This document shows positions 8,954 through 33,005 of a stretch of 64,000 bases of DNA, piece after piece. The number at the start of each line of letters is the position of its first letter. Positions within the stretch are counted from its first letter, which is position 1. A program made the position numbers and the translations under genes. The notes beneath the pieces were generated by a model, which saw only the letters and a list, made by a program, of their open reading frames with translations, was not told where the DNA came from and ran no database searches. Source of the DNA: Rubrobacter taiwanensis (lineage in GTDB: Bacteria > Actinomycetota > Rubrobacteria > Rubrobacterales > Rubrobacteraceae); NCBI RefSeq assembly GCF_004337705.1, contig NZ_SKBU01000001.1, positions 62,001 through 126,000 on the forward strand. Direction: 5' to 3'.

Positions 8954-8984
8954 TTGTGGGTATTCAAAATATGGTATACCATAT
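8954..8984 (+). promoter_or_regulatory. Promoter and GntR-type operator of the ADH-TRAP operon
   Basis: TTGTGG (8954-8959) and TACCAT (8977-8982) are 17 bases apart. The perfect 16-bp palindrome ATATGGTATACCATAT (8969-8984) covers the -10 box, an ideal place for repression. The same core TGGTATACCA, with the same spacing to a TTG -35 box, recurs at both promoters beside the GntR gene near 26.5 kb, so that protein is the likely regulator. Confidence 0.75.
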
Positions 8985-9035
8985 ACGCATAGATGTTCTG
9001 AGAGCCATTGAGAGAACACGAATAGGGGTGAGTGC

Positions 9036-10251: not shown

Positions 10252-11244
10252 ATGAGAGCAGCTTGTAAGTATGTCCTGTTGGTTGCGGCTGCCGTTCTGA
10301 CGGCGGCGACGCTTGCCGCGTGCGGGGCGGCGGGAGAGGAGGAGCAGACGCTGGAGCTGGGCCACGTGTGGCCCGAGGACGACTACCAGGCCGAGGGGGT
10401 GGCGAGGTTCGCCGAAGAGGTGGAGGAGCTTACCGGCGGCAGCGTTACCGTGAACATCTCCCCGGCCGGCCAGCTAGGTGGGGACCGGGAGATCCTGGAG
10501 GGGCTCGAGCTCGGCACCAACGACATGTGGGTCGGAGGGGCCGGAGTGTACAATGCCATAACGCCCGTGGGTCAGCTGTTCCCGGCGCCGTTCATGTTCG
10601 ATGACCTGGACGCCGCGGCGGAGACCTACGACGGTGAGATCGGCGAGGAGATCAAGCAGCGCATCGAGGAGGACACGGACACCGTGGCCCTGGCCTTCTG
10701 GGACCGCGGACCACGCCACCTGACCCTGAACTCCGCGGCCGAGCAGCCGGAAGACCTCGCGGGTAAGAGGATCCGGGTGCCGGAGAACCCCATCTTCATC
10801 GAGACGTGGCGGGCGCTCGGGGCTAGCCCCACGCCGATGGAGTTCCCGGAGGTCTTCACCGCCCTGCAGCAGGGTACGATCGACGGGCAGGAGAACCCCC
10901 TCGCCCTGACCCACTCATCCGGGTTCTACGACGTACAGTCGCACCTGATGCTTACCGGGCACGTGATCGAGCCCATCGCCGTGGCCATCAGCGCCGGGGC
11001 GTGGGAGGGTCTCAGCGAGGAGCAGCAGGACGCGCTCGTGGAGGCGGCCAACGGCGCGGCGAAGGAAGAGGTGGCGCAGATTACCCGGGATCAGGAGGAG
11101 GAATTCCGCCGGCTGCTCGAAGAAGAGGGCATGACGGTGATCGAGCCCGACCGGGAGGCCTACCGCGAGGCGACCGAGGGGATCGTCGAGGAGAACTTCC
11201 CCGAGATCAGCGACCTGTATAACCGCATCGTAGAGCAGCGGTGA
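10252..11244 (+). CDS. dctP: TRAP transporter solute-binding lipoprotein (DctP family)
   Basis: A 330-aa extracytoplasmic binding protein. The N-terminus MRAACKYVLLVAAAVLTAA leads to the lipobox LAACG, so it is lipid-anchored outside the membrane. The body is DctP-like: GHVWPEDDYQAEGVARFAEEVEELTGG at the start, and KRIRVPENPIFIETWRALGASPTPMEFPEVFTALQQGTIDGQENP, which carries the conserved Arg that binds the ligand carboxylate in this family. This suggests an organic acid ligand, by inference. It follows the iron ADH by 37 bp and overlaps dctQ by 4 bp (GTGA). Confidence 0.93.
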   Translation: MRAACKYVLLVAAAVLTAATLAACGAAGEEEQTLELGHVWPEDDYQAEGVARFAEEVEELTGGSVTVNISPAGQLGGDREILEGLELGTNDMWVGGAGVYNAITPVGQLFPAPFMFDDLDAAAETYDGEIGEEIKQRIEEDTDTVALAFWDRGPRHLTLNSAAEQPEDLAGKRIRVPENPIFIETWRALGASPTPMEFPEVFTALQQGTIDGQENPLALTHSSGFYDVQSHLMLTGHVIEPIAVAISAGAWEGLSEEQQDALVEAANGAAKEEVAQITRDQEEEFRRLLEEEGMTVIEPDREAYREATEGIVEENFPEISDLYNRIVEQR

Positions 11245-11822
11245 GCACCGGGGGGGAGAGTAGGGGCGGTAACCCCGCCGGGGTGAGCGGCGTGGAGGTC
11301 TCCGCGGCGACCGGAGACTCCGGCCTCCTCACCCTGCCGCGGGGCCGGATCGACCGCTTCCTGAGCGTGTTGGTGATCGGGTTGCTCGCCGCGATCTTCG
11401 TTACGCTCCTCTCCCAGGTGGTCATGCGCTACGTCTTCGCCTCTCCCCTGGCCTGGTCGGAGGAGCTGGCCCGCTACCTCTTCGTGTGGCTGACCTTCCT
11501 GGGAGCCGCCCTGGCCTACCGCCTCGGGGCCCACATCGCCGTGGACCTCCTGGCCGAGTACCTGGAGCGGCGCGCGGGGGCGCGGGCGGGCCAGGTCCTG
11601 GCCCTGGCGATCCAGGCCGTGGTGGTCGCCTTCCTGGCGGCGCTGCTGGTCGGCGGGGTGGGTCTGGTGCGCGGGACCACCCACCAGGTCACGCCGGGCC
11701 TCGGCATCTCCATGTCCTGGGTCTACCTGGCCATCCCGGTCGGCAGCGCCATCATGATCCTGAGCGCCGCCGGGAAGGCGTTCGCGGCCTGGAGGCAGCG
11801 CCGGAGCGGAGCAAGCGGATGA
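11241..11822 (+). CDS. dctQ: TRAP transporter small permease (DctQ family)
   Basis: A 193-aa, four-span small subunit of the TRAP importer. After a polar N-terminal tail of about 35 residues come hydrophobic segments around 43-65, 75-100, 115-140 and 155-175. ASPLAWSEELARYLFVWLTFLGAALAYR is the DctQ signature. GTG start coupled to dctP and ATGA coupling to dctM. The N-terminal tail is longer than usual. Confidence 0.92.
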   Translation: MSTGGESRGGNPAGVSGVEVSAATGDSGLLTLPRGRIDRFLSVLVIGLLAAIFVTLLSQVVMRYVFASPLAWSEELARYLFVWLTFLGAALAYRLGAHIAVDLLAEYLERRAGARAGQVLALAIQAVVVAFLAALLVGGVGLVRGTTHQVTPGLGISMSWVYLAIPVGSAIMILSAAGKAFAAWRQRRSGASG

Positions 11823-13096
11823 TAGAGGGCCTGCTGCTCCTGGGGGTGCTCCTGCTGCTGGTCCTGGTCGGGGTGCCGGTGGCCTTCGCCTTCGGGCTCG
11901 CCGCGCTGCTGGTGGTGCTGTTCGTGCTCGAGTTGCCGCTGGTGATCATCGCCCAGCAGGCCGGCACCGGGGCCGACTCGTTTACCCTGCTGGCCATACC
12001 GCTCTTCCTGCTGGCCGGGGCGCTGATGAACGCCGGCGGGATCACGCGCCGCCTGGTCCGCTTCGCCAACGTCATCGTGGGGTGGGTGACCGGCGGCCTG
12101 GGGCTGGTGAACGTGGGGGTGAGCATCTTCTTCGCCGGCATCTCGGGCTCGGCGGTGGCCGACACCTCGGCGGTGGGCAAGGCCATGATCCCCGGCATGG
12201 CGCAGCAGGGCTACCCCCGCTCTTTCGCCGCGGCGGTCACGGCCGCCTCATCGGTGGTCGGGCCCATAATTCCGCCCAGCATCCCCATCGTGGTGTATGC
12301 GGTCGCCTCCGGGCTGCCCATAGGCACGCTCTTTCTGGCGGGCATCGGGCCGGGGCTCTTCTTCGGGGCGGTGCTCCTGACGCTCACCTACCTCATCTCG
12401 CGGCGGCGGGGCTTCCCGCGCCAGCCGCGCATATCTCTGAAGGTGGCGGTGAAGTCCTTCCTGGACGCCGTCGGGGCGCTGGTGATGCCCCTGATCATCG
12501 TGCTGGGGGTGGTGGGCGGCGTCTTTACGGTCACGGAGGCGGCCGCGGCGGCCGCGTTCTACGCCCTGGTCCTCTCGACGCTCGTGTACCGGGAGCTGAA
12601 GCTGCGGGACCTGCCCCGGGTGCTGCTGGAGGCCGGGCTCTCCTCGGCGGTGATCATGTTCATCATAGCGGTGGCCAGCCTCTTCGGATGGGTGCTGGTC
12701 CGCTCGGGGTTCCCCCGGCTGCTGGGCGACTTCCTCTCCGGCGAGGCTTTCAACCTGATCCTCGTCCTGGCGATGATCAACGTCATGCTCCTGGTCTTCG
12801 GGCTCTTCGTGGAGGGGAACGCGGCCATAATCATCTTCACGCCGCTCCTTCTACCGACCGTGACGGCGCTCGGGGTCGATCCCCTGCACTTCGGGATAAT
12901 CATGGTCTTCAACCTGATGCTCGGCCTCATAACCCCGCCGGTCGGGATGTGCCTGTTCGTGGCCTCGGAGATCGCGGGGGTCTCGGTGGCGAAGCTGAGC
13001 TGGGCCCTGGCTCCCTTCCTCGTGGCCGGCATCCTCACCCTGCTCGTCATAACCTACCGGCCGCCGCTGACGCTCTACCTGCCCTCGCTCCTGTAG
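11819..13096 (+). CDS. dctM: TRAP transporter large permease (DctM family)
   Basis: A 425-aa, roughly 12-span ion-coupled permease. Signatures include AIPLFLLAGALMNAGGITRRLV, FFAGISGSAVADTSAVGKAMIPGM and FNLMLGLITPPVGMCLFVASEIAG. The ATG at 11819 overlaps the dctQ stop; the frame is open further upstream but only in dctQ shadow. Its last 22 bp overlap the 3' end of the convergent amidohydrolase remnant. It completes the DctPQM set started at 10252. Confidence 0.94.
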   Translation: MIEGLLLLGVLLLLVLVGVPVAFAFGLAALLVVLFVLELPLVIIAQQAGTGADSFTLLAIPLFLLAGALMNAGGITRRLVRFANVIVGWVTGGLGLVNVGVSIFFAGISGSAVADTSAVGKAMIPGMAQQGYPRSFAAAVTAASSVVGPIIPPSIPIVVYAVASGLPIGTLFLAGIGPGLFFGAVLLTLTYLISRRRGFPRQPRISLKVAVKSFLDAVGALVMPLIIVLGVVGGVFTVTEAAAAAAFYALVLSTLVYRELKLRDLPRVLLEAGLSSAVIMFIIAVASLFGWVLVRSGFPRLLGDFLSGEAFNLILVLAMINVMLLVFGLFVEGNAAIIIFTPLLLPTVTALGVDPLHFGIIMVFNLMLGLITPPVGMCLFVASEIAGVSVAKLSWALAPFLVAGILTLLVITYRPPLTLYLPSLL

Positions 13097-17246: not shown

Positions 17247-17252
17247 ACGGGG

Positions 17253-20068: not shown

Positions 20069-21628
20069 CTAGATCAAGCTTTGGCCCTCTCCCTGCTCTG
20101 TCTTGGGGGTCAGCGCGCCGAATGTCTCTCGCAGGGCCGGGTACAGGCCGGTGTAGGCCGCGTACGCGCGGTCGTAGATCTCCCGGACGGCGGTCTCTCC
20201 GGTCGGTTCGATCTTCTCTGCCGCGGGCGGCCCGGCTTCCCGGACCGCGCTCCAGGGGTCGTCGTGGACTCCGGCCCCGACCGCAGCCAGCAGCGCCGCG
20301 CCCCGGCAGGCGGACTCCACGTCCTCGGCCCGCCGGTAGACCCGGCCCGTTATGTCGGCCTTGAGCTGCGCCCAGAACCGGCTGCGGGCCCCGCCGCCCA
20401 CGAGCAGCACTTCGTCTATCTTCGAGCCGCTGTGCCGCTCCTCGATCTCCATGATCTGCCGGATGCCATACCCGGCGGACTCGAAGACGGCCCGGATGAG
20501 GTCGCTGCGGCCGGTGGCGGTGGACATCCCTACCCAGGCTCCCCGGGCGTCGGGGTCCCATACCGGCGTCCGCTCCCCGAGCAGGTAAGGGAGGAAGACC
20601 ACACCCCCCGCCCCCGGCTCCGACCTCCCGGCCTCGGCCTCCAACTCTGCGTAGCTCCGGGCCGGGGCTTCCTCGCAGAACACGGCCTCTCTCAGCCAGC
20701 GGGTCGCGGCTCCGGTGGCCGACATGGCCCCGTGGGAGAGCCACCGCCCCGCCAGCACGTGGCTCCGGTTCATGAAGAGCCGGTTCTGCGGGGGCTCGGA
20801 CCGGCAGACGGTCAGCACGCCGGAGGTCCCGGAGGACTCGAAGACCGCTCCGTCCTCGACGCACCCGACGCCGTACGCCGAGCAGGCGGTGTCCGCCGCT
20901 CCCGCGACCACCGGCACGCGGGACAGCCCCAGCTCGGAGGCTGCCTCTCCCGAGAGGTCCCCGACCGGCTGCCAGGGAGCGACTACCTCGGGCAGGACCT
21001 CCTCGGGCACTTCCAGGGCCTCCAGCGCCTCGCGCGACCACTCGTGCGGCGCTCCGGTGCGCACGAGCCCGGTGTAGGAGGCGTTGGTCCAGTCTATTAC
21101 CCACCGGCCCGTCAGCCGGCCGGCGAGGTAGGAGTTGAGGTGGCCGACCCGCACCCTGCCCGGTGGCCGGGAAGCCTCGTCCAGCAGGTGGCGCATGGCC
21201 GCGGCGGAGCACAGGGAAGAGGTCAGCCGGTTGCCCGTCAGGCGCCAGAACCCCTCCTCCCCTACCCGGTGGCGGACCTCGTTCAGGTACGCCCTCGCCC
21301 GGGTGTCCGGGTAGGTTAGCGCTCCGGAGAGGGGGCGCAGGTCCTCTCCCACGAGCACGACTGTGGGGCTGGCTACTGAGAAGGAGATCCCGGCGACCCT
21401 CGGGCCCGCGGCGGGATCCGCCACCACCCGGCGAACGACGGATACTACCCTGTCCCACACCCGGTGCAGGTCCAGCTCCTGCAGTCCCGGCCGGGGGCTG
21501 CGGGGGGTGAGCGCCGCGCTGCGCCGGCCACGACAGGTTCCCGTCGCGGTAAACAGGCCGGCCTTCACACCGCTCGTCCCGACGTCGACGGCCAGGTAGA
21601 GCCCTTCGCCGCCCCGCGCCGGCTTCAC
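20069..21628 (-). CDS. FGGY-family carbohydrate kinase
   Basis: A 519-aa sugar kinase of the FGGY family (xylulokinase/LsrK/erythritol kinase group). YLAVDVGTSGVKAGLF is the N-terminal phosphate-1 loop, WVIDWTNASYTG and VVAGAADTACSAYGVG carry the substrate and catalytic Asp region, and DEVLLVGGGARSRFWAQLKADITG is the C-terminal FGGY signature with the adenosine site. The GTG at 21628 overlaps the zinc ADH stop (GTGA). Last gene of the leftward operon, 132 bp from the RM block. With the LsrF-like aldolase upstream it suggests phosphorylation followed by aldol cleavage, as in LsrK/LsrF. The sugar is unknown. Confidence 0.88.
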   Translation of the reverse strand: MKPARGGEGLYLAVDVGTSGVKAGLFTATGTCRGRRSAALTPRSPRPGLQELDLHRVWDRVVSVVRRVVADPAAGPRVAGISFSVASPTVVLVGEDLRPLSGALTYPDTRARAYLNEVRHRVGEEGFWRLTGNRLTSSLCSAAAMRHLLDEASRPPGRVRVGHLNSYLAGRLTGRWVIDWTNASYTGLVRTGAPHEWSREALEALEVPEEVLPEVVAPWQPVGDLSGEAASELGLSRVPVVAGAADTACSAYGVGCVEDGAVFESSGTSGVLTVCRSEPPQNRLFMNRSHVLAGRWLSHGAMSATGAATRWLREAVFCEEAPARSYAELEAEAGRSEPGAGGVVFLPYLLGERTPVWDPDARGAWVGMSTATGRSDLIRAVFESAGYGIRQIMEIEERHSGSKIDEVLLVGGGARSRFWAQLKADITGRVYRRAEDVESACRGAALLAAVGAGVHDDPWSAVREAGPPAAEKIEPTGETAVREIYDRAYAAYTGLYPALRETFGALTPKTEQGEGQSLI

Positions 21629-22662
21629 GGGATGAGGGCTACCTTCAACCCTTCGCCACCGGCGGCCTTCGAGATCGCCTCGGCGGTCCGCTCCAGGGGG
21701 AAGCGGTCCGTGAGCATCGGCCGCACGTCGATCCTGCCCGACTCGATGAGCTTCAGGGCGGTCTCGAAGTCTGAGCGGCGGGCCGCTGTGGTGCCCGTGA
21801 CCTTCAGCTCGTTGTAGTGGATGAGGTTCGCCTCCACCTCCGTCCACCCCTTGCCGGAGAGCCCGGCGAAGATGTTTATGTAGCCGCCCTTGCGCGTCAT
21901 GTGCAGCGCGTCGTTCACTAGCCGGGGCAGCCCGATGCAGATGATGGTCGAGTCTACGCCCAGTCCTCCCGTGGTCTCGGAGACGGCCGCGGCCAGGTCC
22001 TCGGTCAGGGGGTCCACCACGACGTGAGCGCCGAGCCGGGCGGCAAACTCCCGCCGGAACTCCGAGGGCTCGCTCACGATCACGCTCCGGGCCCCCGCCA
22101 GGAGGGCCAGCTGGAGGTGGAAGAGACCTATGGGGCCTGCGCCCAGGATGAGCACCGTACCGTCGAGCCGGATGCCCGAGCTGCGGTGACCGTTGACGCA
22201 GCAGCTCAGAGGCTCGGCCAGGGCGAGGTACGCGGGGTCCACCTCCTCCTCGACGCGGAACAGGTTGCCGGCTTCGAGCGCCACGGCGGGGATACGCACG
22301 TACTCGCTCATGCCGCCGTCGAACTCGTAGCCCATCGCCTGCCGGTTCTGGCAGGCGTTCTCCAGCCCGTTGCGGCAGTAGAAGCACCGGCGGCAGGGGA
22401 TCACCGGGGCCATGGCCACCAGATCTCCGACCTCGAAGCCCTCTACCCGGCTTCCGACCTCGGCCACCCGGCCGGCGAACTCGTGGCCCAGGATGGAGGG
22501 CTTCCTGACGCCCCGGGTCTTCTCCCCCCGCAGGATGCGGCCGTCCGTGCCGCACAGGGTGTTGGCTCCCACCTTGAGGAGCACCTCGTCCGGGCCAATC
22601 GCCGGGACGCCGACCTCCCGGACCTCCAGCTCGCCCGGGCCGTTGAACACCGCCGCGATCAT
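21625..22662 (-). CDS. Zinc-dependent medium-chain alcohol dehydrogenase
   Basis: A 345-aa MDR-family dehydrogenase of the sorbitol/threonine dehydrogenase type. The catalytic zinc site is CGTDGRI and GHEFAGRV. The structural zinc cysteines are in CRRCFYCRNGLENAC, and NAD binds at VLILGAGPIGLF. GGMSEYVRIP is typical. The ATG at 22662 has GGGAGG five bases upstream; the open frame beyond is not homologous. It overlaps both neighbours by 4 bp, so aldolase, dehydrogenase and kinase are translated as one coupled set. It probably oxidises a polyol or keto-sugar of the pathway. Confidence 0.92.
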   Translation of the reverse strand: MIAAVFNGPGELEVREVGVPAIGPDEVLLKVGANTLCGTDGRILRGEKTRGVRKPSILGHEFAGRVAEVGSRVEGFEVGDLVAMAPVIPCRRCFYCRNGLENACQNRQAMGYEFDGGMSEYVRIPAVALEAGNLFRVEEEVDPAYLALAEPLSCCVNGHRSSGIRLDGTVLILGAGPIGLFHLQLALLAGARSVIVSEPSEFRREFAARLGAHVVVDPLTEDLAAAVSETTGGLGVDSTIICIGLPRLVNDALHMTRKGGYINIFAGLSGKGWTEVEANLIHYNELKVTGTTAARRSDFETALKLIESGRIDVRPMLTDRFPLERTAEAISKAAGGEGLKVALIP

Positions 22663-23471
22663 CGTCCCTCCCCGTTTGCGTGTTCCAGAGCTTCCTCGAC
22701 TCCCCGGTCCTGGTGGACCATGAGCCCGAGCGCCTCGACCACCCGGTCCGGGCGGGGGTGCTGCCACACGAAGCGCCCGTAGGTGAAGCCGGCCGCCCCG
22801 GCGGCCAGAGCGTCGGCGGTCATCCGGAAGTAGTCGCGCAACTCCCGGCCCGGGGAGCCCCCGGCCAGCACGACGCGGGCGGGGTGGGCCGCCCGGACCA
22901 CCTCGGCGAAGCTCTCGGCGCTGCCGGTGTACTCGGTCTTGACCACGTCGACGCCGACCTCCGCTCCCGCGCGAACGGCGTACTGCATGTTCTGCACGGA
23001 CTTGCGGTCCCCCTCCAGCTTATCGCCCCGCGGGTAGATGTGTGCGGCCAGGGGGAGCCCTGCCGCTTCCGCTTCTCTGGCGATGGAGGAGAGGTGGGTC
23101 AGCTGCTGGGCCTGGTCTTCTCCGCCGACCAGCATGCCCACCGAGATGGCGTCGGCTCCCAGCCGCAGGGCCTCTTCCACCGTGGCGGTCGGGGTGTCGA
23201 AGGTGGAGTGGAAGGGCGAATAGGAGGTGGCCTTGACGATCAGGGAGATCCCGGCCGCCGCGTACTCCGGGGCGAACAGCCGGGAGGCGATGCCCTTCTG
23301 GAGGGTCATGGCGTCGGGGCGGCCCGCGGCCACCGCGGCGACGGCCGCCTTGATGTCCACCAGCCCGGGCAACACGCCGCGGGCGATGGCGTGGTCCAGG
23401 GTGATCGCCAGTAGCCGCCCCGACTCCCGGTTGAACAGCCGGCTCAAGCGTATTTCCTTGCCGAGATACAT
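22659..23471 (-). CDS. Class I aldolase, LsrF/DeoC-FbaB superfamily
   Basis: A 270-aa Schiff-base aldolase of the archaeal-type FBP aldolase/LsrF/ADH-synthase family. LAITLDHAIARGVLPGL has the conserved Asp and His, AAHIYPRG follows, the Schiff-base Lys is in VDVVKTEYTG, and VVLAGGSPG plus GFTYGRFVWQ form the phosphate-binding end of the barrel. It should cleave or thiolyse a phosphorylated sugar, most simply the product of the kinase in the same operon. ATG with GAGAGGAAG upstream. ATGA overlap with the zinc ADH. Confidence 0.85.
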   Translation of the reverse strand: MYLGKEIRLSRLFNRESGRLLAITLDHAIARGVLPGLVDIKAAVAAVAAGRPDAMTLQKGIASRLFAPEYAAAGISLIVKATSYSPFHSTFDTPTATVEEALRLGADAISVGMLVGGEDQAQQLTHLSSIAREAEAAGLPLAAHIYPRGDKLEGDRKSVQNMQYAVRAGAEVGVDVVKTEYTGSAESFAEVVRAAHPARVVLAGGSPGRELRDYFRMTADALAAGAAGFTYGRFVWQHPRPDRVVEALGLMVHQDRGVEEALEHANGEGR

Positions 23472-23499
23472 GCGCTGCTTCCTCTCTATCGGTCTGCCG

Positions 23500-24774
23500 T
23501 CACAGGTTGAACAGGTTCACCGGTCCGAGCGTGATAACCGGGATCAGGGCGACCAGCAGCAACTGGACGACGAGTGTCAGGTAGAAGGGTACGGTCTCCC
23601 GGGTCAGCCGCTCGATGCTGATGCCGCTGACGTAGGAGGCGGCGAACAGGCAGATGCCTACCGGGGGCGTGGTCAGCCCGAGCGCCAGCGCCATTACCAG
23701 GAATACCAGGAAGTGGATGGGGTCTATCCCCACCATCACCGCCGCGGGGGTGAGGATGGGCACCAGCAGGAAGATGGCCGCTATGATGTCCATGAACATC
23801 CCCAGCACCACCAGGATCACACCGATCATCAGCATGATCACGACCGGGTTCTCCGAGATGGCCAGCAGCCCGCTGCTGACCTGAGCCGGCAGGCCGTCCA
23901 CGGTAAAGACGTAGGTGGCTATGCTGGCGCTCATGGCTATGAGCAGGATGGTCCCCGAGGTCCGGGCTGTGCGGATCAAAATGCCCGGCAGGTCGTTCCA
24001 GCGCAGGTCGCCGTAGAACAATGCGGAGACGAAGGCCGTGTAGACCACCGCCACGCCGGCCGCCTCCGTCGGGGTTATGAAGCCCCCGAAGATACCCGTC
24101 AGGATGACCACCGGGGTGACCAGCGCCGGGATGGCGACCAGGAACATCCGGATGCTCTGCCGGAGCCCGAACGACATCACCTCCCCGTAGCCGCGCCGCA
24201 CGGAGATTATGTAGTTGGCCAGCATGAACAACGCCGCCAGCATGATGCCCGGACCGAGGCCGCCGGCGAGCGCCGCCGCCACCGACTCCTGGGCCGTCGC
24301 GGCGGCGACGATCAGGAGGATGCTCGGGGGTATCATCGAGGCCAGGGTGGAGGTCACCATCACCAGGGAGGCCGCGTAGGGTTTGGGGTAGCCGCGCTCG
24401 GTCATCGCCTTTATCTCCAGCGGGCCCAGACTGGCCACGTCCGCGACCGAGGAGCCGGAGATGCCGCCGAAGATCGTGCTCGCCACCACGTTGACGTGCC
24501 CCACCCCGCCGCGCCAGCGGCCCACGATACTGCTGGCGAAGTCGAAGATGCGCTCGGACATCCCCCCGCGCTCCATCAGGTTGCCCGCCAGGATGAACAG
24601 CGGGACGGCGACCAGGATGAAGGTGTTCATGGAGGTGTACATCGCCTGGGGCACGATGGAGAGCGAGAACCCGTATATATAGAGGACGAACACCGCCGCC
24701 AGCCCCAGAGAGACGGCGAGCGGGATGCCCGCCAGCGCCAGCATTGCGAATATGGCTATCAGCAGCCAGCTCAC
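23500..24774 (-). CDS. dctM: TRAP transporter large permease (DctM family)
   Basis: A 424-aa multi-span DctM subunit. Family motifs are AVPLFILAGNLMERGGMSERI, TIFGGISGSSVADVASLG and MALALGLTTPPVGICLFAASYVSG. The GTG at 24774 overlaps the dctQ stop (GTGA). It is the second DctM of the window and differs clearly from the one at 11819 outside the motifs, so the two importers probably take different though related compounds. Confidence 0.93.
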   Translation of the reverse strand: MSWLLIAIFAMLALAGIPLAVSLGLAAVFVLYIYGFSLSIVPQAMYTSMNTFILVAVPLFILAGNLMERGGMSERIFDFASSIVGRWRGGVGHVNVVASTIFGGISGSSVADVASLGPLEIKAMTERGYPKPYAASLVMVTSTLASMIPPSILLIVAAATAQESVAAALAGGLGPGIMLAALFMLANYIISVRRGYGEVMSFGLRQSIRMFLVAIPALVTPVVILTGIFGGFITPTEAAGVAVVYTAFVSALFYGDLRWNDLPGILIRTARTSGTILLIAMSASIATYVFTVDGLPAQVSSGLLAISENPVVIMLMIGVILVVLGMFMDIIAAIFLLVPILTPAAVMVGIDPIHFLVFLVMALALGLTTPPVGICLFAASYVSGISIERLTRETVPFYLTLVVQLLLVALIPVITLGPVNLFNL

Positions 24775-25322
24775 TCCAGGACCTCCCGGGTTCCTTCGAG
24801 GGTCTCGCGGGTCTCGGGGTCGAAGTAGGCGCTCTGGATGTGCGCCACGATGGCCAGCACCGCGGAGATCGCCACCGAGAGGGTGATGGTGTAGATGCCG
24901 ATCTGGAGCGCCGGGGAGACCTGCCCGCTCCGGTACTGGTTGAGCGCGAGGATGGCTCCGTAGTAGGCGACGACGGAGAAGAATACTATTCCGAGCACCA
25001 CGTAGAGGTGTACGGCCAGCCGGCGCAGGCTCCGCGGCAGCCACCGCAGCACGAACGTGATCCTCGCGTGCTCCACGGTCCGGAAGCCGGAGGCCATGCC
25101 CAGGAATATCCCCCACAGGAAGAGGAAGCGGGTAAGCTCCTCCGTCCAGGGCACCGAGTGACCGGCGAGCCGGGAGAAGATCTGGAGCAGCACCGTGACC
25201 AGCATGCCGACCACCGCGAGCAGCAGGATCCCGTCTATAACCCGCCACAACACCGAGCGCCGGGCGGCGCTCGGTGGTTGGGCGAAGGTCTCCGGAGCCT
25301 CCGAAAGCCTGCCGCCGGCCAA
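24771..25322 (-). CDS. dctQ: TRAP transporter small permease (DctQ family)
   Basis: A 183-aa four-span protein with the DctQ signature VPWTEELTRFLFLWGIFLGMASGFRTVEHARI. The TTG start at 25322 lies just after the dctP stop and is preceded by GGGAG at normal spacing; no in-frame ATG or GTG fits better. Coupled to dctM by a 4-bp overlap. Confidence 0.9.
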   Translation of the reverse strand: MAGGRLSEAPETFAQPPSAARRSVLWRVIDGILLLAVVGMLVTVLLQIFSRLAGHSVPWTEELTRFLFLWGIFLGMASGFRTVEHARITFVLRWLPRSLRRLAVHLYVVLGIVFFSVVAYYGAILALNQYRSGQVSPALQIGIYTITLSVAISAVLAIVAHIQSAYFDPETRETLEGTREVLE

Positions 25323-25326
25323 GGGA

Positions 25327-26397
25327 CTAGCTCCCTTCTACGTACTCGAGGGTGGTGTTCATGAACTCCTCGTCCCCCACCAGCTCCTCGAACTGCGGGT
25401 AGAGGTCCCGGGCGATCTCCGCGAACTCGGCGCGCTGCTCCTCGGAGAGCTCGTTTACCTGCATCCCGTGCTCGTTCTGCAGCTCCTCGATAATCTCCGC
25501 TTCTTCGTCGCGGTCGTACTGGGCCTTGAACTCCGCGGTCTCCTCGGCGGCCTCCTGCAGGGCTTCCTGCTGCTCGGCCGAGAGGGACTCCCAGAGGTCG
25601 TTGTTGATCCCGAGCACGTAGCCGTCGGCGATGTGGCCGGTCAGGGAGAGATAATCCTGCACCTCGTAGAAGTTGTTCGCCAGCGGTACCTCAACCGGGT
25701 TCTCCTGCCCGTCGATGGTGTCGAGCTGGAGCGCCGAGTAGACCTCGGTGAAGTCCATGGGGGTAGGGTCCGCCCCCAACTCCCGGAAGAACGCGACCCA
25801 TAGCTGGTTGTTGGGCGTCCGGAGCTTGAGCCCCTGCAGGTCCTCCGGCCCCTCGATCGGCCGCACGGAGTTCGTGACGTGCCGGAAGGTCCGGGTCATC
25901 AAGACCAGACCCTTGGTGTTCAACTCCTCAAGCCCCGCGAGCAGCTCCTGGCCAGGCTCGTCCTGCAGGTAGCTCTCGAACTGGTCCATGTCGGAGAACA
26001 GGTAGGGCAGGCTGATGGCGTTCATCCTGGAGTCGAAGTTCGCGTACACCGAAGTGCTCAGGATCGCCATGTCCAGCGTGCCGTCGCGCAACTGGTCGAT
26101 AGCCGCCTCCTGGTCGCCGCCGAAGAGGACGCCGTCCGGATGCACCTCCACCGTTACCGTGCCGCCCGTCTTCTCCTCGACCAACTCGGCGTAGCGCTCG
26201 GCCGTTACACCCACGGCCGAGTGGATGGGGTCGCCCACCGCGAGCCGGATGTTGACCGCCTCCTCGCCTTCAGCGGCTTCGCCTCCATCTTCTCCAGCCG
26301 TCTGCCCGCAGGCGACGAGCGCCAGAAGCAAGCCCGCCAGTAAAATACCCAGCCCCAGCCTGCTGCCGAAGCTCAAACCCTTCCCTCGTAGTGACAA
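25327..26397 (-). CDS. dctP: TRAP transporter solute-binding lipoprotein (DctP family)
   Basis: A 356-aa lipoprotein with signal LGILLAGLLLALVACG (lipobox Cys near residue 30), followed by an acidic linker and a DctP fold. LKLRTPNNQLWVAFFRELGADPTPMDF holds the conserved carboxylate-binding Arg, and QLDTIDGQENP is the family signature. The TTG at 26397 has a perfect AAAGGAGG six bases upstream and gives a normal signal peptide; the ATG at 26451 would lie at the promoter start point and adds a long polar extension. First gene of the leftward operon. Confidence 0.92.
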   Translation of the reverse strand: MSLRGKGLSFGSRLGLGILLAGLLLALVACGQTAGEDGGEAAEGEEAVNIRLAVGDPIHSAVGVTAERYAELVEEKTGGTVTVEVHPDGVLFGGDQEAAIDQLRDGTLDMAILSTSVYANFDSRMNAISLPYLFSDMDQFESYLQDEPGQELLAGLEELNTKGLVLMTRTFRHVTNSVRPIEGPEDLQGLKLRTPNNQLWVAFFRELGADPTPMDFTEVYSALQLDTIDGQENPVEVPLANNFYEVQDYLSLTGHIADGYVLGINNDLWESLSAEQQEALQEAAEETAEFKAQYDRDEEAEIIEELQNEHGMQVNELSEEQRAEFAEIARDLYPQFEELVGDEEFMNTTLEYVEGS

Positions 26398-26444: not shown

Positions 26445-26480
26445 CGAGCATATAGTATACCAAATACCGAGTACGTGCAA
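26445..26480 (-). promoter_or_regulatory. Promoter and operator of the leftward TRAP-aldolase-kinase operon
   Basis: On the minus strand, TTGCAC (26480-26475) and TACTAT (26457-26452) are 17 bases apart. The imperfect palindrome TGGTATACTA covers the -10 box in the same register as at the other two GntR-linked promoters. Predicted start near 26445 gives a leader of about 48 nt with AAAGGAGG. Confidence 0.7.
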
Positions 26481-26570: not shown

Positions 26571-26605
26571 TTGCATCTCTCCGGTATTTGGTATACCATA
26601 TTCGC
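26571..26605 (+). promoter_or_regulatory. Promoter and operator of the GntR gene
   Basis: TTGCAT (26571-26576) and TACCAT (26594-26599) are 17 bases apart, with the palindrome core TGGTATACCA (26589-26598) over the -10 box. The predicted start coincides with the GTG start codon at 26606. The arrangement predicts autoregulation and a leaderless message. Confidence 0.7.
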
Positions 26606-27310
26606 GTGACCAATCTGCGACCGATCAAGACGACGTACGTAAACGAGAGCGTATACGAGGCGCTCGAGCGGGCCATCCTGCACGGCGAGCTGCCGCCCCG
26701 GGCCGCGTTGAACGACCGCCGGCTGGCGGAGATGCTAGGGGTGAGCCGGACGCCCGTGCGGGACGCGCTGCACCGGCTGGAGGGTTCGGGGCTCGTGGAG
26801 CGCCGGGGCCGGCACGGGTGGGCGGTGGCCGGGCTGGAGCCTCGGGACGTGGAGGAGGTCTTCGAGTTGCGCCGGGTCCTGGAGCCGCTGGGTCTGGAGC
26901 GTCTGGCCGAGACGTGGGAAGGGGCGGCGGTGCGGGAGCTCTCGGGCTTCTTCGGCGGGTTCGACGAGCCGTTGCGGCGGGAGCAGTACCCGGAGTATCT
27001 CGGGCGGGACCACGACTTCCACAAGAAGATCGTGGCGTGCTCGCGGAACTCGCGGGTCATCGGGTTCTACGGCATCCTGGAGCAGCAGATCGACCGGGTC
27101 CGCCACTACCTGTCCTACGGGTATGAGGGGCGCGTCGAGGCCAGCCTGGCGGAGCACAAGCGGATCTGCGCTGCGATCGGCGCCCGCGAGCTGGAATCGG
27201 CGAAGGGGCTGTTGCTGGAGCACCTGAACATGGTGGAGAAGACCATGGTCAGCTTCGTCGAGAGCCAGGACCTCGAGCGGATCATCCGGGAGCGCGGTAT
27301 TGGAGAGTAG
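26606..27310 (+). CDS. GntR family regulator, FCD (FadR) subfamily
   Basis: A 234-aa transcription factor. An N-terminal winged helix (VYEALERAILHGELPPRAALNDRRLAEMLGVSRTPVRDALHRLEGSGLVER) is followed by an FCD ligand-binding domain whose metal/ligand residues are visible in DHDFHKKIVACSRN and EHKRICAAIGARELESAK. FCD regulators usually bind organic or sugar acids. The frame is open further upstream, but that would place the operator inside the coding region; GTG at 26606 directly after the promoter is preferred. It lies divergent from the TRAP-aldolase-kinase operon and just before the Ldh-ALDH operon. Inferred target: TGGTATACCA at three promoters. Confidence 0.9.
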   Translation: MTNLRPIKTTYVNESVYEALERAILHGELPPRAALNDRRLAEMLGVSRTPVRDALHRLEGSGLVERRGRHGWAVAGLEPRDVEEVFELRRVLEPLGLERLAETWEGAAVRELSGFFGGFDEPLRREQYPEYLGRDHDFHKKIVACSRNSRVIGFYGILEQQIDRVRHYLSYGYEGRVEASLAEHKRICAAIGARELESAKGLLLEHLNMVEKTMVSFVESQDLERIIRERGIGE

Positions 27311-27444: not shown

Positions 27445-28509
27445 GTGGAGGGTAACACCGTCCGGCCGGAGAGCTTGCGCAGCTTCTCGGAAGAGTGTCT
27501 GGAGGCTTGCGGCATGTTGCGGGAGAATGCTCGCGTCGTCTCCGACAGCCTGGTAAAGGCCAACCTGCGCGGGGTGGACTCGCACGGCGTTACCCGGCTC
27601 GGCATCTACGTGAAGCGGTTGAAGATGGGTCTGGTCAACCCCAACCCGGAGGTGCGGGTCGTCCAGGAGAGCCCGGCGACGCTGCTCGTCGACGGGGACA
27701 ACGGCCCGGGACAGGTCGTGGGCTTGCGGGCGCTGGAGCTGGGATTGGAGAAGGTCCGGCGGGGCGGCGGGGTCTCTGTGGGGGTAAAGCACTCCAACCA
27801 CTTCGGGACGGGGGCGTACTACGTGCAGCGGGCGGTCGAGGCGGACGTGATCTCCTTCGCCTACTCCAACGCGCCGCCGAGCATGGCTCCGTGGGGAGGC
27901 GTCGAGCCCTACGTGGGCACCAACCCCTACGCCTACGGCGTGCCTGCGGGCCGGCACGAGCCGATCATCTTCGACATGGCGACCAGCGTCGTGGCGCGGG
28001 GCAAGATCATCCTGGCGGCCAAGAAGGGCGAGTTGATACCCGAAGGGTGGGCAATAGATAAGGAAGGTCGGCCTACCACCGATGCCCAGGCCGCTCTGGA
28101 GGGGTGCGTGCTGCCCTTCGGCGGGCCGAAAGGATATGCGATCTCCCTTATGATCGACATCATGTCCGGGGTGCTCACCGGGGCCGGGTTCGGCCCGCGC
28201 GTCAGGAATCTCTACGAGGACTTCGAGGACTCGCAGAACGTGGGAGCGTTCTTTCACCTGCTCGACGTGGAGCGCTTCATGCCGGTCGAGGAGTTCAAGG
28301 GCCGGATAGACCGGATGATCGACGAGATCAAGGCCGTGCGCCGGGCGCGGGGCGTGGAGGAGATCTTCGTCCCCGGGGAGATCGAGCACCGCATAGAGCA
28401 GCAGCGCCTCGCCTCCGGGATACCGCTCGGAGCGGAGACGGTCGCGGAGCTGAGAGAGGTGGGCCTGCTCTGCGGCGTCGAGCTGGAAGACTTCGTACAC
28501 GAGAGCTAG
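27445..28509 (+). CDS. Ldh-family (malate/L-lactate dehydrogenase type) oxidoreductase
   Basis: A 354-aa NAD(P)-dependent dehydrogenase of the LDH2/MDHG fold, unrelated to classical malate dehydrogenase; members reduce 2-oxoacids such as 2,3-diketogulonate, ureidoglycolate or sulfolactate. VDSHGVTRLGIYVKRL has the catalytic His region. VKHSNHFGTGAYYVQ and GTNPYAYGVPAG bind the cofactor, and LPFGGPKGYAISLMIDIMSG is typical. The GTG start follows AAGGAGGAG. It starts a rightward group with ALDH, an RraA-type aldolase and iron ADH. The substrate is probably a hydroxy acid, by family. Confidence 0.9.
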   Translation: MEGNTVRPESLRSFSEECLEACGMLRENARVVSDSLVKANLRGVDSHGVTRLGIYVKRLKMGLVNPNPEVRVVQESPATLLVDGDNGPGQVVGLRALELGLEKVRRGGGVSVGVKHSNHFGTGAYYVQRAVEADVISFAYSNAPPSMAPWGGVEPYVGTNPYAYGVPAGRHEPIIFDMATSVVARGKIILAAKKGELIPEGWAIDKEGRPTTDAQAALEGCVLPFGGPKGYAISLMIDIMSGVLTGAGFGPRVRNLYEDFEDSQNVGAFFHLLDVERFMPVEEFKGRIDRMIDEIKAVRRARGVEEIFVPGEIEHRIEQQRLASGIPLGAETVAELREVGLLCGVELEDFVHES

Positions 28510-28522
28510 AGGAGGACATATC

Positions 28523-30049
28523 GTGTCAGAGACGAAGCAAGCTCTGAAGGAGTACCGGAACTACATAGGCGGAGAGTGGGTCGCCGCGAGCAGCGGCGAG
28601 ACCTACGAGCTGGCCAACGCGGGGAGGACCGACGAGGCCATCGCTCGCGTGCCGGTCTCTACCGCCGAGGACGTCGACCGGGCCGTACAGGCGGCCCACG
28701 CGGCGTTCCGGGAGTGGAAGCAGGTCCCGGCCCCGGAGCGGATGGAGTACATCTACGGGCTGATGGAGGTCTGGAAGCGGCGCCGGGACGAGCTGGCCGA
28801 GGTGATGGTCCTGGAGATGGGCAAAGCCATCATCGAGGCCCGCAACGAGGTGGACCGGGCTCCCGGCGAGATGCGGTTCGTCGCCGGTGAGGCGTTGCGC
28901 ATCGACGGCCAGACGCTGCCCAGCGGGCGGCCGAAGGTCTTCGCCTACACGGAGCGCGAGCCGATCGGGGTCGTGGCCGCCATAACCCCCTGGAACTTCC
29001 CGGTGCTCTCGCCGCTGCGGAAGGTGATCCCGGCCCTCGTCTACGGCTGCACCGTGGTGCTCAAGCCCGCCTCGCAGTCGCCGCTGACCTCGGCCCTCAT
29101 CTTCGAGATGCTCCAGGAGGCCGGCCTCCCGGCCGGGGCTGCCAACCTGGTCATCGGGCGGGGCGGGGAGGTCGGCGACGCGCTCGTCACCCACCCCCTG
29201 GTGAGCGGTATAACGTTCACCGGCTCTACCGACGTGGGCCTCGGCATCTACGAGAAGACGACCAGGAACAACGCCAAGATACAGCTGGAGATGGGCGGCA
29301 AGAACGCCGCGGTCGTCGCGGGCTGCAACGACCTGAAGAGCGCCGCGGCGCAGATCGTGCCCGCAGCCTACGCGGCCACGGGCCAGCGCTGCACCTCCAT
29401 CAGCCGGGTGATCGTGCTGGAGGAGCACAAGGAGGAGCTGGAGGCGGCGCTCGTCGAAGAGGCCGGGAAGCTCAAGGTCGGCTACGGGCTCGACGAGGAG
29501 ACGACCATGGGCCCGCTCGTCAACCGCTCCCAGTTCGAGCGGTCCATGCACTACATCGACCGGGCGCAGCAGGACGGGGCCCGGCTCCTCACCGGGGGCA
29601 ACCGGATAGAAGGCGACGATCTGGACAGAGGCTACTACCTGGAGCCGACGATCCTCACCGACGTCAAGCCGGGGACGCCCGCCGCGCTGGACGAGATCTT
29701 CGGCCCGGTGCTCGTGGTGATCCCTGTGGAGAGCTTCGGGGAGGCTCTGGAGGTGAACAACGAGGTCCGCTACGGCCTCACCTCCGCCATCTTCACCGAC
29801 GACATGGACTGGGCGCGGGCCTACGTGAAGAGCTCCGAGGCCGGCATGGTGCACGTCAACAACGGGACTATCAGCGAGCCGCACATGCCGTTCGGAGGCG
29901 TGAAGCAGTCCGGTCGGGGAGCCTACGGCATCGGCTCGACGAATAAGGACTTCTACACCAACCTGAAGGTCGTCTACCACCAGCACGGCTACGACGAGGA
30001 CGACCTGCCGCCGGCTAACCGGATGGTCGCGGAGGAAGATCCGGCATGA
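28523..30049 (+). CDS. NAD(P)-dependent aldehyde dehydrogenase
   Basis: A 508-aa ALDH superfamily enzyme. AAITPWNFPVLSPLRKVIPALVYGCTVVLKPA is the cofactor-binding region, ITFTGSTDVG the Rossmann Gly-rich turn, QLEMGGKNAAVV contains the general base Glu, and GQRCTSISRVIV the catalytic Cys. It resembles semialdehyde dehydrogenases such as 2-oxoglutarate semialdehyde dehydrogenase, but the aldehyde is not fixed by sequence. GTG start with GAGGAGG upstream, 14 bp after the Ldh gene, and an ATGA overlap with the aldolase gene. Confidence 0.93.
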   Translation: MSETKQALKEYRNYIGGEWVAASSGETYELANAGRTDEAIARVPVSTAEDVDRAVQAAHAAFREWKQVPAPERMEYIYGLMEVWKRRRDELAEVMVLEMGKAIIEARNEVDRAPGEMRFVAGEALRIDGQTLPSGRPKVFAYTEREPIGVVAAITPWNFPVLSPLRKVIPALVYGCTVVLKPASQSPLTSALIFEMLQEAGLPAGAANLVIGRGGEVGDALVTHPLVSGITFTGSTDVGLGIYEKTTRNNAKIQLEMGGKNAAVVAGCNDLKSAAAQIVPAAYAATGQRCTSISRVIVLEEHKEELEAALVEEAGKLKVGYGLDEETTMGPLVNRSQFERSMHYIDRAQQDGARLLTGGNRIEGDDLDRGYYLEPTILTDVKPGTPAALDEIFGPVLVVIPVESFGEALEVNNEVRYGLTSAIFTDDMDWARAYVKSSEAGMVHVNNGTISEPHMPFGGVKQSGRGAYGIGSTNKDFYTNLKVVYHQHGYDEDDLPPANRMVAEEDPA

Positions 30050-30738
30050 ACAACCTCGGGTTCAGAATCTTCCCGCCCACGCGTGCGCCGGAAAAGTTAG
30101 TAGAGCTCTTCCGCGGGTTGCCGACGCCGAACATCAGCGACAACATGAACCGCCTCAACGGCGTGAGCGGCGAGATCCGGGCCATGCACGGCCCGGAGCA
30201 GTTGCTCGGGTCGGCGTTCACCGTGAGGACGCGGCCGGGGGACAACCTGCTCGTCCACAAGGCGCTGGACATGCTCGAGCCCGGCGACGCGCTCGTCATC
30301 GACGCCGGCGGGGAGACCACCAACGCCATCCTGGGCGAGATCATCATGCAGATGGCCATCGGGAGGGGCGCGGCGGGCATCGTGGTGGACGGGGCCATCC
30401 GGGACACGGACGCGTTCGCCGAGGCCCGGTTCCCCTGCTTCGCCCGGGGCTCGTCCCACCGGGGACCGTACAAAGACGGTCCGGGGGAGATCAACGTCCC
30501 CGCCGTCGTAGGCGGCGCGATCGTGAACCCCGGAGACATCGTGGTCGGGGACAGCGACGGCATAGTCTTCGTCCCGCAGGAGGTCGCGGAGGAGCTGGCG
30601 CAGCGGGTGCGCGAGACGAACGCCAAAGAGGAGGAGACGATGCGCCAGATCTCCGCGGGAAGCCTGGACCGCGGCTGGGTGGACCGGACACTGGAGCAGC
30701 GGGGATGCCAGTGGGTAGGTCCCGGAGGTCGGGCATGA
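30046..30738 (+). CDS. RraA-like/HMG-CHA aldolase family protein
   Basis: A 230-aa member of the RraA/4-hydroxy-4-methyl-2-oxoglutarate aldolase family. LPTPNISDNMNRL at the start, LLVHKALDMLEPGDALVIDAGGETTNAILGEI and GIVVDGAIRDTDAF carry the Gly-rich pyruvate site and the Arg-Asp metal motif of class II pyruvate aldolases, so it probably cleaves a 4-hydroxy-2-oxoacid to pyruvate plus a carbonyl product. RraA itself (RNase E inhibitor) is shorter and unlikely in this operon. Coupled by 4-bp overlaps to both neighbours. Confidence 0.87.
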   Translation: MNNLGFRIFPPTRAPEKLVELFRGLPTPNISDNMNRLNGVSGEIRAMHGPEQLLGSAFTVRTRPGDNLLVHKALDMLEPGDALVIDAGGETTNAILGEIIMQMAIGRGAAGIVVDGAIRDTDAFAEARFPCFARGSSHRGPYKDGPGEINVPAVVGGAIVNPGDIVVGDSDGIVFVPQEVAEELAQRVRETNAKEEETMRQISAGSLDRGWVDRTLEQRGCQWVGPGGRA

Positions 30739-31913
30739 GCTACCATCACCGCATCTTCGCCTGGGAGCTACCTTCACGCATCGAGTTCGGTATCGGGGCG
30801 GCCGCCAACCTCGCGGACCGCGTAAAGGAGTACGGCGCGGACCGCGTCCTCCTGGCCGCCGATCCCGGCCTCCCTGAGGCTGTTCTCAACAAGGTGACCA
30901 CTCCTCTGGACGAGGGGGGCGTATCCCGGGTGGTCTTCCGGGACATCGAGCCCGAGCCCGACGCCCGGGGGGTCGAAGCCGGCCTGGAGCTCGCCCGCTC
31001 CGAGGGGTGCGAGGTCGTCGTCGGGGTGGGCGGGGGCAGCACGCTGGACACGGCCAAGGCCATCGCCGTCATGCTGCGCAACGAGGGCCACATTCGCGAC
31101 TACGCCGGGCAGGACCTCATTCCCGAGCCGGGCGCGCCGGTCATAGCCATGCCGACCACGGCCGGGACCGGCAGCGAGGTGACCGTCTGGTCCGTGATCG
31201 CGGAGAAGGACAAGAAGAAAAAGTACGGCGTCGGCAGCCGGTACATGACGGCCAGCCTCGCCCTCTGCGATCCGGAGCTGACCGTGACCCTGCCGCCGCA
31301 CATCACGGCGGCCTCCGGCATCGACGCGCTGGCCCACGCCCTGGAGTCGTACGTGAACAAGGCCACGCAGCCCGTCTCGGAGGCGCTCTCGCTGCAGGCC
31401 ATGCAGCTGGTCGCGAAGTCCCTGCGCCTGGCGGTCGTCGACGGGGAGAACCTGGAGGCCCGGTCGGACATGCTGCTCGCCAGCCTGATTGCGGGGATGG
31501 CCTTCAACTCCACCCGGCTGGGCATCGCCCACGCCCTGGCCATGCCGCTCGGGGCCGGGTACAAGATACCTCACAGCACGATAATAGCCATACTGCTACC
31601 CGAGGTCATGCGGTTCAATCTGGTCGGCAACCTCGAAAAGTTCGTCCGGATAGCCGCGATTTTCGGCGAGAGGACGGAGGGAATGCCGGTCCGCGACGCC
31701 GCGGAGCTGTCCGTAGAGGCGATCCTGAAAGTGTACGAGGACATAGGCATCTCCGACGGGCTGGCCCGCTATGGCGTCCGCGAGGAGCACCTGCGCGGCT
31801 TGGCGGAGGCCGGGATAAAGACCGGCAACATACCGGTCAATCCGCGCAAACCGACGGTCGAGGATCTAATAGAGATCATGCGCAGGTCAATGGAGGCTCC
31901 GGTTGCCGTCTAG
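30735..31913 (+). CDS. Iron-containing alcohol dehydrogenase
   Basis: A 392-aa group III ADH with VVVGVGGGSTLDTAKAIA and TTAGTGSEVT (cofactor), and GIDALAHALESY, IAHALAMPLG and KIPHSTIIAILLPEV (metal ligands). Same length as the paralogue at 9036, which heads the other TRAP operon. ATG at 30735 with GGAGGT upstream overlaps the aldolase stop; the frame opens 10 codons earlier without a ribosome site. It likely handles the aldehyde or alcohol released by the upstream aldolase. Confidence 0.92.
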   Translation: MSYHHRIFAWELPSRIEFGIGAAANLADRVKEYGADRVLLAADPGLPEAVLNKVTTPLDEGGVSRVVFRDIEPEPDARGVEAGLELARSEGCEVVVGVGGGSTLDTAKAIAVMLRNEGHIRDYAGQDLIPEPGAPVIAMPTTAGTGSEVTVWSVIAEKDKKKKYGVGSRYMTASLALCDPELTVTLPPHITAASGIDALAHALESYVNKATQPVSEALSLQAMQLVAKSLRLAVVDGENLEARSDMLLASLIAGMAFNSTRLGIAHALAMPLGAGYKIPHSTIIAILLPEVMRFNLVGNLEKFVRIAAIFGERTEGMPVRDAAELSVEAILKVYEDIGISDGLARYGVREEHLRGLAEAGIKTGNIPVNPRKPTVEDLIEIMRRSMEAPVAV

Positions 31914-32054: not shown

Positions 32055-33005
32055 ATGAAGAAGATTCTGGTCACCCGCGAGATCCCGGACGCCGGGATGG
32101 AGCTGCTGCAGGAGTTCGAGACGACCGTCCTCTCTGAGGAGCCTCCCGCAAGAGAGGAGCTGCTCGGGGCCGCAGAGGGAGCGAGCGGCGTCCTCTGTAC
32201 CCTCACCGAACAGATAGACGAGGAGTTCTTCGAGGCGGCCGGGGATAACCTGAAGGTCGTTGCCAACATGGCCGTCGGCTACGACAACATAGACCTCGAA
32301 GCCGCCGGGAGGCGCGGGGTGGTGGTCACGAACACTCCCGGCGTGCTGGACGAGACCACGGCTGACACCACCTTCATGCTGCTTCTGGCGGCGGCCCGCA
32401 GGCTGGGGGAGGCGGAGAGGATAGTAAGAGGTGGCAGGTGGAAGGCGTGGGGACCGAAGATGCTCCTGGGGCCGGACGTGTGGGGCAAGCGGCTCGGTAT
32501 CATCGGGATGGGCAGGATCGGGCGGGCCGTCGCCCGCAGGGCGCGGGGCTTCGGGATGCGTATCCTCTACCACAGCCGCTCCGCCAAGCCGCACGCCGAG
32601 AAGGAGTTCGGGGCGATCAGGCTGGATCTGGACCAGCTCCTGATCCACAGCGACTTCATCTCTATCCACACCCCGCTTACCCCGGAGACGCACCACCTCA
32701 TCGGAGAGCGCGAACTCAAGCTGATGAAGTCTACCGCCGTGCTGGTGAACACCTCCCGCGGCCCGGTGGTAGACGAGGCGGCTCTCGCAAAGGCACTCGC
32801 CGATAGGCATATCTTCGCCGCCGGGCTGGACGTATACGAGGAGGAGCCGAAAGTGCACCCCGGGCTGCTAGAGCTGGAGAATGTGGTGCTGGTGCCGCAT
32901 ATCGGCAGCGCCTCGTTCGAGACCCGGGACAAGATGGCGCGTATGGCGGCGGAGAACCTGCGGGCCGTGCTGGCGGGCGAGCGACCGCCCAACCCCGTCC
33001 GTTAG
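32055..33005 (+). CDS. D-isomer 2-hydroxyacid dehydrogenase (glyoxylate/hydroxypyruvate reductase type)
   Basis: A 316-aa NAD(P)-dependent reductase. The N-terminal catalytic lobe includes VANMAVGYDNID, the Rossmann fold has LGIIGMGRIGRAVARRARGFG, and the catalytic Arg, Glu and His are in VNTSRGPVVDEAAL, GLDVYEEEP and VLVPHIGSAS. These match D-glycerate dehydrogenase/glyoxylate reductases. ATG with GGAGGGG upstream. It follows the iron ADH by 141 bp, so it may have its own promoter but fits the same oxo/hydroxy-acid pathway. Confidence 0.92.
   Translation: MKKILVTREIPDAGMELLQEFETTVLSEEPPAREELLGAAEGASGVLCTLTEQIDEEFFEAAGDNLKVVANMAVGYDNIDLEAAGRRGVVVTNTPGVLDETTADTTFMLLLAAARRLGEAERIVRGGRWKAWGPKMLLGPDVWGKRLGIIGMGRIGRAVARRARGFGMRILYHSRSAKPHAEKEFGAIRLDLDQLLIHSDFISIHTPLTPETHHLIGERELKLMKSTAVLVNTSRGPVVDEAALAKALADRHIFAAGLDVYEEEPKVHPGLLELENVVLVPHIGSASFETRDKMARMAAENLRAVLAGERPPNPVR

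Follow-up and report, generated by a model that had tools for sequence, protein, structure and literature searches.

Several described pathways share parts with an operon on a 64,000-nucleotide stretch of Rubrobacter taiwanensis DNA (contig NZ_SKBU01000001.1, positions 62,001 to 126,000; hereafter the window, in whose numbering all positions are given). The operon spans 20069–26397 on the minus strand and encodes a TRAP importer (DctPQM), a class I aldolase, a zinc-dependent dehydrogenase and an FGGY kinase. In fucose and rhamnose catabolism (FucK-FucA, RhaB-RhaD), an FGGY kinase yields a ketose 1-phosphate, which an aldolase splits into dihydroxyacetone phosphate (DHAP) and an aldehyde. The operon differs in having a zinc-dependent dehydrogenase for the isomerase, a class I aldolase of the DhnA type and probably an acidic substrate. 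The sulfoglycolytic Embden–Meyerhof–Parnas pathway (YihS-YihV-YihT) also converts an acidic hexose derivative into DHAP and an acidic three-carbon aldehyde, and YihT is among the structural matches of the aldolase model. That pathway relies on an isomerase together with a kinase of the PfkB type, whereas the operon has a dehydrogenase, an FGGY kinase and an aldolase of a different subfamily. The glucarate/galactarate pathway (GarL, GarR, GarK, CdaR) is similar in its conversion of tartronate semialdehyde through glycerate to phosphoglycerate, in CdaR and in glycerate kinase, but starts with a dehydratase and contains neither a sugar-acid kinase nor a DHAP-forming aldolase. Autoinducer-2 processing by LsrK and LsrF likewise pairs an FGGY kinase with a DhnA-family protein, but the Lsr system has an ABC transporter where the operon has a TRAP importer. 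The closest solved relative of the aldolase by sequence and fold is the archaeal ADH synthase MJ0400 (2qjg, 2qjh, 2qji), which forms a Schiff base with DHAP; unlike MJ0400, the aldolase scores below curated ADH synthase cut-offs and sits in a catabolic operon. The original prediction, made from the sequence, could name no known pathway with exactly these parts, and no published one was found in the literature searched, most subscription journals being outside its coverage.

The gene content of the operon suggests catabolism of a hexonate (six-carbon aldonic acid) by C5 oxidation, C6 phosphorylation and cleavage to DHAP and tartronate semialdehyde, an assignment that we favor tentatively and rate somewhat below an even chance. 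The six genes are intact and co-directional, in the order dctP, dctQ, dctM, aldolase, dehydrogenase and kinase. Four-base-pair overlaps join the aldolase to the dehydrogenase and the dehydrogenase to the kinase, and dctQ and dctM overlap likewise. Family profiles confirm DctP, DctQ and DctM, a DeoC/LacD (DhnA) aldolase, ADH_N with ADH_zinc_N, and FGGY_N with FGGY_C. Both the families and the overlaps among the last three genes agree with the six-gene coupled operon originally predicted. In profile searches, all three enzymes stay below every curated equivalog cut-off, so that no rule-based name can be given to any of them.

The aldolase belongs to the DhnA/DeoC-LacD class I family, with a PF01791 score of 125 bits (cut-off 23.8). 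Alignment shows that the Schiff-base residue K178, together with D26, H27, Y146 and a GG...GR phosphate site, is present and conserved. The predicted fold (pLDDT 89) matches ADH synthase structures, including 2qjg, with a TM score of about 0.89, and one of the matched structures was crystallised covalently with DHAP. The phosphate of the aldolase substrate most likely lies on the ketone side, because the nearest structures are ADH synthases, one with covalent DHAP, and the GG/GR site is retained. In addition, R31 is invariant across the aldolase family, missing from five outgroup sequences and close to D26 and H27 in the sequence; it could grip a distal carboxylate. By score, archaeal ADH synthase (174 bits) is a closer relative of the aldolase than LsrF (70 bits), but the aldolase falls outside the curated ADH synthase models (235.5 against a cut-off of 241; TIGR01949, 219.2 against 299.45) and outside the LsrF thiolase model NF006081 (109 against 297).

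The kinase is a member of the FGGY carbohydrate kinase family by PF00370 and PF02782, and its predicted fold agrees. It reaches 112.6 bits with the LsrK autoinducer-2 kinase model NF008187, far from the cut-off of 528. The predicted likeness to LsrK/LsrF chemistry is consequently weak, at 109 bits for LsrF (cut-off 297) and 113 bits for LsrK (cut-off 528), with ADH synthase nearer to the aldolase. The best equivalog of the kinase is XylB (273 bits, cut-off 380), and no equivalog cut-off of the named FGGY kinases (XylB, GntK, GlpK, AraB, FucK and RhaB) is reached. In a review of FGGY kinases, no group tied to an aldolase or a TRAP importer was found. The dehydrogenase contains cysteines for a structural zinc (C90, C93, C96 and C104) and a catalytic zinc (C37). 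Its closest models are Tdh and IolM, threonine and scyllo-inosose dehydrogenases, and neither is passed.

When 84,980 species genomes were searched for the aldolase, 18 loci were recovered, and those matches that are full-length have 50–58% identity; two of the loci are pieces of one metagenome-assembled genome (MAG) split between contigs. The original prediction had proposed a genome-neighborhood search, and this search recovers the same gene order: wherever the contig is long enough, the dehydrogenase and then the kinase follow 3′ of the aldolase on the same strand. This aldolase–dehydrogenase–kinase triad is found in Halanaerobiales, Truepera, Bacillota MAGs and alpha-, beta- and gammaproteobacteria. 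It was not found at three distant DhnA aldolases (37–38% identity) that served as controls. The recurrence of the order in relatives, together with the controls lacking the triad, therefore indicates an arrangement that is more than chance. Pairwise identities of the three triad proteins correlate (Mantel r 0.91–0.96, 0 of 5000 permutations). The correlation shows joint inheritance, not interaction, because shared descent alone also gives high values.

The aldolase is rare, occurring in 1 of 369, 1 of 351, 3 of 246 and 1 of 201 genomes in four samples, each of which includes the genome on which it was centered. Among 5,426 complete E. coli genomes, two contain matching DNA, and the triad is present in the one whose locus was read completely. 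On a Rhizobium plasmid, a TRAP importer, a D-2-hydroxyacid dehydrogenase (2HADH), the triad and an FCD regulator lie in this order, with transposase genes on the flanks. R. taiwanensis is the only one of 40 genomes of its class with the aldolase; the triad was therefore probably gained by transfer, and vertical inheritance is unlikely.

The importer is assigned to the TRAP family by its three components and the conserved substrate-binding arginine. R169, R172 and R193 of DctP1 occupy the usual carboxylate-binding positions and are invariant in ten relatives. Relatives of DctP1 are adjoined by a gluconokinase in Paracoccus pantotrophus and Sinorhizobium chiapasense. Reading the substrate from solved TRAP receptors was dropped, the best match, 4p47, being just moderately similar, and no close solved structure was found for three further members of the receptor family. 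Some receptors among the nearest solved structures presumably bind C4 acids, such as D-erythronate. At three loci with DctP1 relatives (L036, L037 and L038), the neighbors are an oxidoreductase (SAF-domain or Gfo/Idh-like), a putative quinol monooxygenase and a second oxidoreductase that is NAD(P)-dependent. In L038, the NAD(P)-dependent enzyme is tartronate-semialdehyde-reductase-like, and the gluconokinase follows.

In enteric clusters, the triad lies in a clean operon between a 2HADH and an MFS carrier, assigned to the galactonate family by TIGR00893 with a score under the cut-off. A glycerate kinase accompanies the triad in Providencia, enteric genome G850 and E. coli. CdaR is located by the triad in Providencia and G850, and was not found in the stretch read around the E. 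coli operon. In Halomonas, a 2HADH and a glycerate kinase lie downstream of the triad, and the R. taiwanensis genome encodes a MOFRL-type glycerate 2-kinase (PF13660) outside the operon. At record positions 3699363–3706435, the environmental E. coli B18271 has a compact operon of 2HADH, aldolase, zinc dehydrogenase, ‘xylulokinase’, MFS carrier and glycerate kinase, next to insertion-sequence remnants.

The substrate was originally predicted to be a polyol or sugar. A sugar acid is more likely, because of the receptor arginines, the enteric galactonate-family MFS carrier, the glycerate kinase and CdaR neighbors, and the gluconokinase beside receptor relatives. In combination, the neighborhood and receptor clues point to a sugar acid whose catabolism yields glycerate. 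We consider very improbable a scheme in which oxidation and phosphorylation of a polyol or sugar precede its cleavage to DHAP and glycolaldehyde, lactaldehyde or glyceraldehyde, with the divergently encoded aldehyde dehydrogenase, iron-containing alcohol dehydrogenase and Ldh2 finishing the aldehyde. The XylB match of the kinase would suit this scheme, as would the layout of the fucose and rhamnose systems, which combine an FGGY kinase, a DHAP aldolase and aldehyde enzymes. However, the aldehyde enzymes are missing at most triad loci and occur free of the triad in five plasmid clusters, and the TRAP and galactonate-type carriers indicate an acid. With a pentonate as substrate, the 4-keto-5-phospho derivative would give DHAP and glyoxylate, from which the 2HADH would make glycolate. 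The glyoxylate-reductase character of the 2HADHs and the DHAP-type aldolase fit such a substrate, which we nonetheless judge improbable, as it leaves the glycerate kinase and CdaR by the triad unexplained.

The sequence shows which families the genes encode, how they are coupled and conserved across phyla, where the operators lie and which glycerate genes adjoin the relatives; the substrate, regiochemistry, reactions and regulator binding are our inference. A hexonate would be imported by the TRAP system and oxidised by the zinc-dependent dehydrogenase at C5, next to the terminal CH2OH. The product would be a 5-ketohexonate, which can equally be written as a 2-ketouronate; examples are fructuronate, tagaturonate and 5-ketogluconate. 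The FGGY kinase would phosphorylate the terminal hydroxyl to form 5-keto-6-phosphohexonate, the identity of which follows from the six carbons of DHAP plus a three-carbon acid. The Schiff-base aldolase would split the C3–C4 bond to release DHAP and tartronate semialdehyde. Glycerate kinase would then phosphorylate the D-glycerate formed by reduction of the three-carbon acid. The originally predicted logic of coupled import, oxidation, phosphorylation and Schiff-base cleavage is supported.

Several points weigh against the hexonate scheme. Its weakest step is that from tartronate semialdehyde to D-glycerate, because 2HADH enzymes normally take hydroxypyruvate; the family acts on hydroxypyruvate or glyoxylate and is not known to reduce tartronate semialdehyde. 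No hydroxypyruvate isomerase was seen in the triad clusters. Several betaproteobacterial clusters comprise the TRAP importer and the triad, with none of the glycerate genes searched for, and no TIGR00045 glycerate kinase was found in the R. taiwanensis genome. Finally, the possible role of R31 is an argument from alignment only. The reductase problem would disappear if the hexonate were oxidised at C2, phosphorylated at C6 and cleaved to hydroxypyruvate and glyceraldehyde 3-phosphate, with the 2HADH forming D-glycerate; the 2HADH and glycerate kinase neighbors would then be explained without an isomerase. We regard this route as quite unlikely, since it needs a far-end phosphate, whereas the DhnA family holds the phosphate by the Schiff-base ketone and the site is conserved. 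DhnA relatives do work on unusual phosphates, and there is a small chance that the same enzyme classes handle something else, for instance a sugar acid that is branched or sulfonated, or a C4 acid that the aldolase would decarboxylate. The C4 acids bound by some TRAP receptors would suit such a reading, but loss of CO2 from a C4 acid would leave no substrate for the 2HADH and glycerate kinase.

If C5 oxidation of a hexonate is correct, a phosphorylative, dehydratase-free branch would be added to bacterial sugar-acid catabolism, and a DHAP-dependent aldolase taking an acidic aldehyde would become available. It would also explain genes that plasmid and E. coli records label ‘xylulokinase’, ‘class I fructose-bisphosphate aldolase’ or ‘2-amino-3,7-dideoxy-D-threo-hept-6-ulosonate synthase’. 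The presence of the triad in two E. coli genomes puts the substrate within reach of a simple growth screen.

The sequence GGTATTTGGTATACYATA precedes both dctP1 and gntR and, with two mismatches, the second operon of an iron-containing alcohol dehydrogenase and a TRAP importer (FeADH-TRAP) at 9036. Shuffled sequence contains no operator matches. With as many as two mismatches allowed, a related 16-bp pattern has no site beyond these three in the 3.0-Mb genome, all three being in the window. Operators of FadR-subfamily GntR regulators follow the consensus TKGT-N2-ACMA with 2-nt spacing (PMC4494728). The predicted operator, a palindrome of 18 bp, fits the consensus, including the spacing, and the regulator has the GntR and FCD domains of the subfamily. 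In Halomonas, TGGTATACCA is located at the gntR start. The start of the window gntR is probably GTG 26606, preferred because the longer open reading frame from 26537 runs over the operator.

On this evidence, control of the operon by a GntR regulator of the FadR type, acting at three operators, is probable. By these predicted sites the operon is one third of a regulon, the others being the divergent genes from gntR through ldh2, aldehyde dehydrogenase, RraA and FeADH to 2HADH, and the second FeADH-TRAP operon (8970–13096), which probably belongs because it has the same operator. The coupling in the original prediction stands, but the operon is part of this three-operator regulon and not a unit of its own.

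Table 1. Features of the predicted regulon in the window
Feature	Position	Strand	Basis or remark
dctP1, TRAP solute-binding protein, TTG start	25327..26397	-	TIGR00787 226.6 bits, cut-off 175
dctQ1, TRAP small permease	24771..25322	-	PF04290
dctM1, TRAP large permease	23500..24774	-	TIGR00786 386 bits, over cut-off
DhnA-type class I (Schiff-base) aldolase	22659..23471	-	PF01791; nearest structures 2qjg/2qjh/2qji; K178, D26, H27, Y146 conserved
Zinc-dependent (MDR) dehydrogenase, proposed hexonate 5-dehydrogenase	21625..22662	-	PF08240 + PF00107; Zn cysteines
FGGY kinase, proposed 5-ketohexonate 6-kinase	20069..21628	-	PF00370 + PF02782; predicted FGGY fold
Putative operator copy 1, GGTATTTGGTATACTATA	26451..26468	-	Upstream of dctP1; 0 expected by shuffling
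Putative operator copy 2, GGTATTTGGTATACCATA	26583..26600	+	Upstream of gntR
Putative operator copy 3, CGTATATGGTATACCATA	8970..8987	-	Upstream of FeADH2-TRAP2
gntR, GntR/FCD (FadR subfamily) regulator	26606..27310	+	PF00392 + PF07729
ldh2, malate/L-lactate dehydrogenase family (module B)	27445..28509	+	PF02615; closest model sulfolactate dehydrogenase 301 bits, cut-off 500
Aldehyde dehydrogenase (module B)	28523..30049	+	PF00171
RraA-like aldolase/decarboxylase (module B)	30046..30738	+	PF03737; NF004850 289 bits, cut-off 231
Iron-containing alcohol dehydrogenase 1 (module B)	30735..31913	+	PF00465 + PF25137
D-2-hydroxyacid dehydrogenase, glyoxylate/hydroxypyruvate reductase type	32055..33005	+	Profile search
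Iron-containing alcohol dehydrogenase 2, first gene of left operon	9036..10214	+	PF00465 + PF25137
dctP2, second TRAP solute-binding protein	10252..11244	+	Best matches: receptors of stand-alone module-B clusters
dctQ2, probable small permease	11241..11822	+	Open frame read between dctP2 and dctM2
dctM2, large permease	11819..13096	+	Open frame; 38% to dctM1

Plasmids of Alkalihalophilus, Mesobacillus, Aminobacter, Paracoccus and Azospirillum carry the Ldh2, aldehyde dehydrogenase, RraA and FeADH genes (module B) in clusters that lack the triad. All five clusters contain a D-glycerate dehydrogenase, a glycerate kinase or both, and TRAP or other transporters accompany the module. The window 2HADH is 50–52% identical to the ‘D-glycerate dehydrogenase’ of the Alkalihalophilus and Mesobacillus clusters, and DctP2 is 41–45% identical to TRAP receptors in four triad-free module-B clusters. 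Both modules are present together in Truepera, Salinarimonas and Halomonas too. Module B is a separately conserved module that is also tied to glycerate. Processing of the triad's aldehyde by module B was set aside: the module occurs alone, and most triad loci lack it. No described pathway for these four enzymes was found in the literature searched. With low confidence, we suggest that module B oxidises a tetronate to hydroxypyruvate, with tartrate and oxaloglycolate as intermediates. An alternative in which RraA splits a 2-keto aldonate by retro-aldol cleavage is ranked lower, because decarboxylation and malate-like oxidation are the better-known activities of the RraA and Ldh2 families. It is conceivable, though doubtful, that a rare yet widespread dehydratase-free hexonate route is joined in some bacteria to such a tetronate-type module (C4 sugar acid to tartrate, oxaloglycolate, hydroxypyruvate and D-glycerate) within one three-operator regulon.

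Between the two TRAP operons, 13762–19967 contains lower-GC, restriction-modification-like genes (an N6/N4 DNA methylase and a ResIII-type protein), which may have been inserted there; a partial amidohydrolase frame (13099–13518) adjoins them. In a genome of the same family, locus L053 (10414–15155) brings together an isomerase-like gene with a weak match to sulfoquinovose isomerase, a DhnA aldolase, an FGGY kinase and a zinc-dependent dehydrogenase, perhaps a related route for another sugar.

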